Below are positions 28,401-30,944 of a stretch of 64,000 bases of DNA, piece by piece. This stretch comes from Candidatus Aminicenantota bacterium (lineage in GTDB: Bacteria; Acidobacteriota; Aminicenantia; Aminicenantales; Saccharicenantaceae). The stretch spans positions 19,481 to 83,480 of the forward strand of contig JAPKZD010000003.1 of NCBI GenBank assembly GCA_026393975.1, written 5' to 3'. Within the stretch, counting starts at the first letter, position 1; the number at the start of each line of letters is the position of its first letter. A program made the translations under genes and the position numbers. The notes beneath the pieces were generated by a model. The model searched no databases. It was given only the letters and a program-made list of their open reading frames with translations, and was not told where the DNA came from.

Positions 28401-29048
28401 TTAAATCTTCTTGCGGAAGCTCAGGGAGATCCCGCCGCTCGCCGAGGTGTCGATCGTCGTCTCTATGAAGTCGAGACTACGGACGTAATCGAGGAAGTCC
28501 CGGATGCCCTTCATATAGCCCAGGCTCGAGACGTTGTGGACGGCGAAACAGCCGCCGGGGGCGAGCTTGGGGAGCAGGGCTTTGAAGTAGTTCAGGGTCC
28601 AGTTCTTGTCGGCGTCGATGAAGACGAAGTCGAACGGTCCTGGCAGCTCCTCGACGAGCTCGTGGGCGTCGGCCAGCCGGGCGTCGATGGTGCCGTCGAG
28701 TCCGGAAGCCTTGAAATTCCGGACGGCCAAGAGGTGCCGGAATTCCTCGATCTCGACGGTGATGAGCGAGCCGCCCGTCTTGCTCAGGGCCCAGGCCTGC
28801 CAGATCCCCGAGTGCCCCGTGGACGTGCCGATCTCGAGGGCGCGCGTGTAGCCGTGCTTGAGGATGATGTCGTAGAGAAACCGGCCGTCGGCCTCGGTGA
28901 CGTTCTCCTCGCGCCACTGATCTTTCTGCGAGGCGAGGAATTCCCGGACGCGATCGTCGAGGGATTGGGAGGCCGTCGCGGATTGCCCGTAAGCGAGGAG
29001 GGAGAGCAACGAGCCGAACGCGATGACCAGACAGGCCGCTTTTTTCAT
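28401..29048 (-). CDS. Class-I O-methyltransferase with an N-terminal signal peptide
   Basis: 215 residues. The core is a catechol/caffeoyl-CoA-type O-methyltransferase: ALEIGTSTGHSGIW (SAM motif I), FVFIDADKNWTLNYF (metal-binding motif), LAPGGCFAVHN. The N-terminus, MKKAACLVIAFGSLLSLLAYGQSATAS, reads as a cleavable signal peptide, which is odd because SAM is cytosolic. The first in-frame start after the promoter is this ATG, so the peptide is not an annotation artefact. It could be a membrane-tethered enzyme. The only SD is weak (TAGAG). First gene of the esterase-aldolase operon. Confidence 0.82.
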   Translation of the reverse strand: MKKAACLVIAFGSLLSLLAYGQSATASQSLDDRVREFLASQKDQWREENVTEADGRFLYDIILKHGYTRALEIGTSTGHSGIWQAWALSKTGGSLITVEIEEFRHLLAVRNFKASGLDGTIDARLADAHELVEELPGPFDFVFIDADKNWTLNYFKALLPKLAPGGCFAVHNVSSLGYMKGIRDFLDYVRSLDFIETTIDTSASGGISLSFRKKI

Positions 29049-29294: not shown

Positions 29295-29329
29295 AAAAAA
29301 AAGGGCCGCTCTCTTCCGGAGAGCGGCCC
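29295..29329 (-). terminator. Rho-independent terminator of the thioredoxin-TPR gene
   Basis: Read on the minus strand: a perfect 11-bp G/C-rich stem (29329-29319 with 29313-29303), a 5-nt loop, then eight T residues (29302-29295). It begins 22 nt after the stop of the thioredoxin-TPR gene. Confidence 0.93.
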
Positions 29330-29351: not shown

Positions 29352-30908
29352 CTACTTCTTGACTTCTCCGCCCTTCTCCTTGGCCATGGCGTCCTTGATG
29401 TCCTTGACGAGCTTCTCGTACTGCTGGACGGGGAATCCCTCGTACTTGACGGCCATGGGCTTGACGAGCTCGAGGGCCTTTTCGGCGGCCCTGAGGGCCT
29501 CGGCGTAGTTCTTCAGCTTGAAGAGGACCTGACCGAGGACGTAGTTGTTGTAATAGTCGGAAGTGAGCTCGACCGACTTTTTGGCCGCCGCGAGGGCGTT
29601 GTCGAGGTTCGTCCCCTGCTTGTTCCAGAAACTGGCGTAGCTCGAGAGGCTCCCTTGGTCGCCCCAGTTCTTCTTAGCGAATTCCGGCCCGTAGATCGCC
29701 AGGGCCTTGTCGGTCTTACCGAGCTTGGCGAAGATCCCGGCGACCTGGGCGAGCGTGTACGACTGGTCGGGCTTCAGCTTGGCGGCCAGGTCGGCCATGG
29801 CCTCGACGCTCTCGAGGTTTTTGTTCTGTTCCAGCCAAAAATTCGCGTAGCCGGTCAGAGCGTAGACGGCGTTCGAAACATAGCCGTCGATGAAATCCTT
29901 TCCAAATTCCTCTTCGGCCTTGGCCGGGTCGCCTTTGAGAACATAGAGCCGGGCGAGGTTCTGCTGGTAGTTGGGGTTCTGCGGATAGCCGGCGATGTCC
30001 TTGAGCTTCTCGGCCATGGCGATGCCCTTGTCGACCGGCTCCTTGTCCCGGACGATGCGCTCGACGTAGGAGCCGAGGGCATCCTTGTCTTCGGGGTACT
30101 TAGCCGTGTACGCGTCGAAGAACTTGCTTGCGTCTTCCTTGGAGGCCTGGTAGCCGTAGTAGTAGCCCAGGTAGGAGTAAGCCTGCTTGACGAGCTTGCT
30201 CTCGGGGTATTTCTTGATGAAGGATTGAAGGGGAGCCGGGTCGGGCTTACGGCCCATGGAGGCCATCTGGCCGAGCTCGAACTCGGCGGCCTGGGTGTAG
30301 GGGACGGTCGCCTTGAGGTACTCGAAGGTGTAGGCGCCCTGTTTTCCCTCGGGGTCGAGGGCGATGACCTTGGCGTAGAGCTCCTTGGTCTTCGCTTCCA
30401 TCGTGTAGCGATCGCCGCACTTCTGGGCGAGCTTGAAGACGACCTCGACGTTTGTCGGCTCCTTGGCGTAGCGCTCGCTCAAGGCGAGATAAGTGTCGAC
30501 CCCGGATAGGGATTTCTGGACCCTTTCTAGGAACTTGTCGGCGGGCGGGCCATAGCCGACGATCCAATCGACTTCTTTCCCGTTCTTATCGACGATGAGC
30601 TCGGTCGGCGTCGCGCTGATATTGTACTTCTCGTACATAGCGTCGCCGTTCTTGTCGCCGCGGCTGGCGCGGTAGAGGATGACGTTCTTGTTGAGGAAAT
30701 CGGCGTATTTGGGGTTGTTGTAGAACTGCTGAACCAGCAGTTTGCAGCTCCCTCAGCCACTCGAGTAGAAGTCGATGAGGATGAGCTTGTTGAGCTTCTG
30801 GGCCTGGGCCAGCGCTTCGTCGAAGGGGCCCGTGAGAACCGTGGCCGTCTGGGCGGCGGCGAGGGACGCGACGAGGAGGAGGCCGGCGATGGCGGTGAAC
30901 TTTTTCAT
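29352..30908 (-). CDS. Thioredoxin-fold/TPR protein, probable selenoprotein (in-frame TGA = Sec52)
   Basis: A single 518-residue frame is interrupted only by TGA at 30755-30753. Upstream: ATG at 30908 with AAGGAGG 5 nt away, a signal peptide (about 1-19, ending AAA-Q), then KLILIDFYSS-G. Downstream: GSCK, a thioredoxin continuation with cis-proline ATPTELIVD, then about 370 residues of TPR-like helical repeats. With TGA read as selenocysteine the active site is U52-G-S-C55, exactly where thioredoxins have CxxC. Starting 10 nt after TGA is a perfect 8-bp hairpin with loop GUU, as expected of a bacterial SECIS. Expected location is the periplasm; role probably thiol/disulfide or peroxide chemistry on a bound partner. 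The alternative, a nonsense mutation, is less likely because both halves are intact. Confidence 0.85.
30724..30742 (-). promoter_or_regulatory. Candidate bacterial SECIS element
   Basis: In the mRNA, AACUGCUG (30742-30735) pairs perfectly with CAGCAGUU (30731-30724) around the loop GUU. The loop begins 18 nt after the UGA codon, within the 16-37-nt window used for bacterial SECIS searches, and has G as its first base as SelB recognition requires. Confidence 0.7.
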
Positions 30909-30944
30909 GCAGCCCTCCTTGGGTTTAAACGATTCGTCCCGGTC

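Follow-up and report, generated by a model that had tools for sequence, protein, structure and literature searches.

Gene organization and coding frame

The analysed stretch of 64,000 nucleotides from a Candidatus Aminicenantota bacterium, here called the window, contains on its minus strand a frame that opens with an ATG at 30908 and closes with a TAG at 29352. Translation confirmed that its only internal stop is a TGA at 30755-30753, as proposed in a first-pass annotation of the sequence. The TGA falls on the first Cys of a CxxC site and would give the motif U-G-S-C, again as proposed. The following features were assigned, each with its basis.

29352..30908, minus strand: full coding sequence, 518 residues with predicted Sec at position 52 (UGSC) and stop codon TAG (frame translation)
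30913..30920, minus strand: Shine-Dalgarno sequence AAGGAGGG, immediately 5' of the ATG (sequence)
30849..30908, minus strand: predicted signal peptide MKKFTAIAGLLLVASLAAAQ, putatively cleaved (sequence; the model has a helix of low confidence at residues 4-18)
30507..30830, minus strand: thioredoxin domain, about residues 27-134 (Pfam PF13098/PF13899), with UGSC and the cis-Pro motif TPT (Pfam, alignment, model, solved relatives)
30753..30755, minus strand: predicted Sec-UGA codon for residue 52, which opens the UxxC active site (TGA in close copies, Cys or TGA in distant ones)
30744..30746, minus strand: codon for Cys55, the resolving Cys of UGSC, without variation across the family (alignment)
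30724..30742, minus strand: candidate bacterial SECIS hairpin AACTGCTG-GTT-CAGCAGTT, perfect 8 bp, loop GUU (fold, conservation, covariation)
29370..30491, minus strand: TPR-type helical solenoid, about residues 140-513 (Pfam, model, Foldseek)
29303..29329, minus strand: intrinsic terminator with an 11-bp stem and then T8 (sequence)

The terminator bears out the strong terminator of the first-pass annotation. The promoter also claimed there, the one point of that annotation left without support, was not recovered, as a scan for sigma-70-type promoters found none. Reading the locus with table 11 yields a 428-aa fragment (30638-29352) and an N-terminal part cut at the TGA, so that the expectation of two truncated genes from automated callers is fair in outline. 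Global reassignment of TGA was considered and ruled out, since TGA acts as an ordinary stop in the neighbouring genes: it is the end codon of six of the eight that have Pfam support, which implies a standard genetic code.

Downstream of the gene lies an O-methyltransferase gene (28401-29048, minus strand). A methyltransferase gene also adjoins the thioredoxin-TPR gene in two relatives, and in the relatives L002 and L003 the product of the adjacent methyltransferase gene has an N-terminus resembling a signal peptide, which is unusual for this enzyme class.

Conservation of the in-frame TGA

Homologue searches in the phylum (297 genomes) and in the order (94 genomes) returned many full-length copies. 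At codon 52, each of the 43 distinct close copies, with identities of 38-100%, had TGA and none had Cys, while more distant thioredoxin-TPR proteins had Cys (WCGYC, WCTPC) or TGA (WUGAC, DTUSSC) in the same column. Thus, the comparison of homologues at position 52 recommended earlier found TGA or Cys at exactly that column. Genome G299, taken at first as having a copy without the TGA, was discarded, as a run of N (assembly gap) spans the thioredoxin part. The plasmid collection contained no full-length relative.

Most genomes of this group were assembled from metagenomes, and TGA is one base away from TGC, which could speak for an assembly or sequencing error hiding a true TGC or TGT, or for a gene killed by a recent nonsense mutation. 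We consider the probability of this negligible. Among the 43 distinct close copies, which stem from many independent assemblies, the TGA persists to an identity of about 40%, and this recurrence argues that it is no assembly error. Moreover, purifying selection acts on either side of the TGA, with dN/dS values of 0.18-0.39 downstream and 0.08-0.38 upstream (Nei-Gojobori type, own implementation), in agreement with the earlier view that both halves are intact coding sequence. Covariation in the hairpin described below likewise stands against an error or a pseudogene.

On a tree built from 64 thioredoxin domains, some deep branches of which are long and weakly supported, the distribution of Sec and Cys needs two changes only, suggesting that Sec is old in thioredoxin-TPR proteins. 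Several paralogues occur per genome, partly in tandem (three in G288:C31 and four in G138:C101), and some copies carry an active site UPxC instead of UGxC. These tandem copies, some with UPxC, suggest differing substrates.

The searches also revealed a second group of thioredoxin-TPR selenoproteins with 343-357 aa and a motif like WUGACKKLDRDV (L029, L030, L031, L034, L037, L038, L041 and L043), mostly from another family of the phylum. Its candidate SECIS is different, with the form GGAC-CGUGAU-GUCC about 21 nt past the UGA.

A conserved and covarying SECIS hairpin

The hairpin begins 10 nt downstream of the TGA and its loop lies 18 nt downstream, which matches the perfect 8-bp, GUU-loop element reported in the first-pass annotation. 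The published model of bacterial SECIS elements sets a loop of 3-9 nt, a stem of 4-16 bp, a G within the first two loop positions, a distance of 16-37 nt from the UGA and a minimum free energy of at most -7.5 kcal/mol (PMC13188914). With a loop of 3 nt, 8 bp, G as first loop base, a distance of 18 nt and a minimum free energy between -9.0 kcal/mol (hairpin alone) and -13.1 kcal/mol, the hairpin lies within all of these constraints; the rules on loop distance and first-base G applied earlier agree with this model.

Folded by itself, the sequence exceeded chance only slightly (z -1.8; a fold as good arose in 9 of 200 shuffles), and it is the conservation in relatives, rather than this folding, which argues that the hairpin is more than chance. 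At least seven of the eight pairs form in 40 of 40 distinct sequences, each with a 3-nt loop that has a G at its start. When codons were redrawn 3000 times from each gene's own codon usage with the protein sequence held, 239 +/- 6 of the 320 cells were paired (maximum 262), compared to 309 observed. Changes on both sides were found at four of the eight pairs and made up 16 cells (3.0 +/- 1.5 in shuffles), and the covariation score was 0.197 compared to 0.068 in shuffles, none of 500 reaching the observed value, in a set of 40 sequences that are related to each other and not independent. Every slid pairing register was far worse than the true one. At the top of the stem a switch from G-C to C-G occurred in several places on the thioredoxin-domain tree, and between sister copies in L058 and L061 an exchange of CTG..CAG and CTC..GAG, combining a silent Leu change with Gln/Glu, kept the pair. 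An Rfam search of the SECIS region matched no family, so the case for a SECIS rests on covariation. A pattern search of the own genome retrieved the present hairpin and no second copy.

Selenocysteine machinery and its linkage to the gene

The first-pass annotation had proposed to look for selA, selB, selC and selD in the same genome, and SelA, SelB, SelD and a tRNA-Sec(UCA) were all found in the host genome (2.95 Mb, 95% complete, 25 contigs). A profile search placed selA at C7:81041-82135 (484 bits). It is followed by a gene for SelD, identified from its sequence, with further support from the AIRS domains that its counterpart in G322 has, and then by a gene for SelB with a winged-helix match at C7:85175. 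The tRNA-Sec with anticodon UCA lies at C5:240450 (73 bits). In this genome the selenoprotein gene is located away from the sel genes. A further SelB-type winged-helix match (G000:C15:33422-33541, L045) in a 390-aa open frame lies outside the sel cluster.

Among the 94 genomes of the order, SelA exceeded its cut-off in 27 of the 29 genomes with a strong copy of the gene and in 8 of the 65 without one (Fisher p = 2.7e-14, phylogeny ignored). The two strong-copy genomes without such a match, G302 and G362, are incomplete (80-86%). Furthermore, G322, G323 and G300 share the order selA-selD-thioredoxin-TPR gene with a DsbD_N protein nearby, selB comes after DsbD_N in G300, and in G256 the thioredoxin-TPR gene is near selA-selB. 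The architecture with its UGA is shared by dozens of uncultured relatives, some of which encode it next to sel genes.

Other genes of these neighbourhoods were recorded as well. In G322 and G323, a conserved exported protein of 676 aa is encoded directly 3' of the thioredoxin-TPR gene, between it and the DsbD_N protein (L086:1203-3233 and L090:1366-3396, both minus strand); it has no Pfam match, and an HELGH motif suggests a metallopeptidase. In the own genome, a stand-alone DsbD_N-domain protein is encoded directly 5' of selA (L001:616-1206, plus strand, C7), and such a gene is likewise present in the sel neighbourhood of G322 and G300, and of G323 as judged from a similar N-terminal sequence. 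A likely second selenoprotein, deiodinase-like, is encoded 5' of selA in G322 and G300 (L086:8122-9831 and L087:8260-10095, both minus strand), with the motif GGCTUPPW ... SREPHPGFYGF and an in-frame TGA in both genomes. Deiodinase-like selenoproteins are a bacterial family in a 2026 review of prokaryotic selenoproteins. The T4_deiodinase profile had no match in the own genome, and the control was also without any match.

The internal ATG at 30638, which opens the 428-aa frame, would be compatible with a UGA that is a real or a leaky, regulatory stop, so that a short peptide would be made and the downstream part translated as a protein of its own. This seems very improbable, because the 428-aa fragment would be devoid of the signal peptide and of the first strands and active site of the thioredoxin fold, conservation is strong in the residues encoded from the TGA to 30638, and neither the SECIS nor the SelA linkage would be explained. 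Taken together, the UGA, the covarying SECIS, the sel genes and the SelA linkage point to Sec decoding by SelB as the only reading that fits all observations. At the sequence level the gene thus bears the marks of a bacterial selenoprotein, namely a UGA at a redox-active Cys position, homologues with Cys or Sec, sel genes and a bSECIS.

Domain structure and relation to known families

The N-terminal domain had its best Pfam match in PF13098 (E-value 1.3e-10), and its membership in the thioredoxin superfamily is supported by PF13098, PF13899 and PF00085 with 42, 38.7 and 30.6 bits (cut-offs 27, 27 and 23.5). T100-P101, comprising the cis-Pro, is invariant in the family alignment. TPR membership is supported by TPR_12 (31.2 bits, cut-off 30.1) and TPR_14 (29.7 bits, cut-off 23.5). 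AlphaFold run on 14 family members gave a mean pLDDT of 91, and the high-confidence model shows a thioredoxin fold at residues 27-134 followed by a continuous helical solenoid as far as residue 513. Foldseek with the full model matched OGT, LbcA and consensus TPRs, thus TPR solenoids only and with poor superposition. Solved relatives of the first domain were DsbD-type and other thioredoxins (PDB 1uc7, 2fwe, 2kuc), which share the fold and the CxxC site; however, these have Cys and are part of a membrane protein or stand alone, without a TPR fusion.

None of the NCBIfam models reached its cut-off. The equivalog of classical thioredoxin (TIGR01068) scored 33.3 bits against a cut-off of 96.8. The C-terminal DsbD-type thioredoxin region of TsoB (NF045694, rhodanese/DsbD fusion-like) matched residues 5-132 with 38.4 bits, far from the cut-off of 805 bits; only this thioredoxin end matches, and the present protein has one predicted Sec whereas TsoB is listed with two. 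The Trx7/PDZ (seleno)protein (NF041199), a weak match in 3 of 14 members, similarly combines a Thioredoxin_7-type domain with a protein-interaction domain, but has CxxU and PDZ in place of UxxC and TPR.

The listed thiol:disulfide interchange selenoproteins (PF13098, UxxC) share with the present protein a Thioredoxin_2-type domain with Sec as the first residue of CxxC. As PF13098 is the top Pfam match of the N-terminal domain, the protein might be a mere member of that family with the TPR tail as an unimportant lineage-specific extension, a question of filing that does not touch its selenoprotein status. We regard this as rather unlikely. The TPR part accounts for two thirds of the protein (about 370 residues) and is conserved over its full length in close copies, the tail is also present on more distant Sec and Cys relatives, and no NCBIfam model assigns the protein. 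Compared by description only, no TPR solenoid is listed for the interchange family.

The 2026 review tabulates UxxC thioredoxin-like families and mentions no TPR fusion, in keeping with the earlier statement that a UxxC thioredoxin with a large TPR domain is not known as a described selenoprotein family. No TPR appears in further papers either, and searches for selenoproteins of Aminicenantes or Acidobacteria, largely in open-access literature, yielded no description; a mention in a supplementary list, e.g. of a groundwater MAG survey (reference 66 of the review), is possible. The combination of signal peptide, UxxC thioredoxin and TPR domain constitutes a genuine selenoprotein subfamily that is apparently new to the literature.

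Proposed function

The gene almost certainly encodes an exported, soluble, Sec-containing thioredoxin-like oxidoreductase with a TPR tail, decoded through SelB and SECIS, as judged from its sequence and that of its relatives. SelB with Sec-tRNA-Sec would bind the hairpin and decode the UGA as Sec, a step in which we have high confidence. With moderate confidence, we propose that after export U52-C55 may reduce or exchange disulfides or other oxidised periplasmic substrates, that it may be re-reduced via a CcdA/DsbD-type membrane conduit, and that the TPR solenoid may dock partner proteins or substrates. The own genome has one DsbD_TM/CcdA-like gene, at C24, which together with DsbD_N genes next to sel genes suggests a DsbD-like electron supply. 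The protein is most likely a periplasmic thiol-disulfide oxidoreductase predicted to be fed by CcdA/DsbD-type proteins.

More tentatively, and with somewhat less than even probability, the family could be Sec-obligate: selenothioredoxins of the periplasm, built on a TPR scaffold, which were duplicated into tandem arrays (UGxC, UPxC), never reverted to Cys and are a main reason why the lineage keeps its Sec machinery, in some genomes within one cluster (selA-selD-thioredoxin/TPR, DsbD_N nearby). If true, this would amount to a dedicated extracytoplasmic selenium-dependent thiol relay. The lack of a Cys version in close copies, combined with tandem duplication and sel linkage, makes the family well suited to testing why Sec is retained. 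In addition, the hairpin clearly illustrates how, in nature, a coding sequence co-evolves with an embedded SECIS, Gln/Glu changes being matched by silent Leu changes. Altogether, the finding adds a selenoprotein architecture that is conserved in a large lineage of uncultured bacteria, and in which annotation with the standard code cuts the gene at its UGA.
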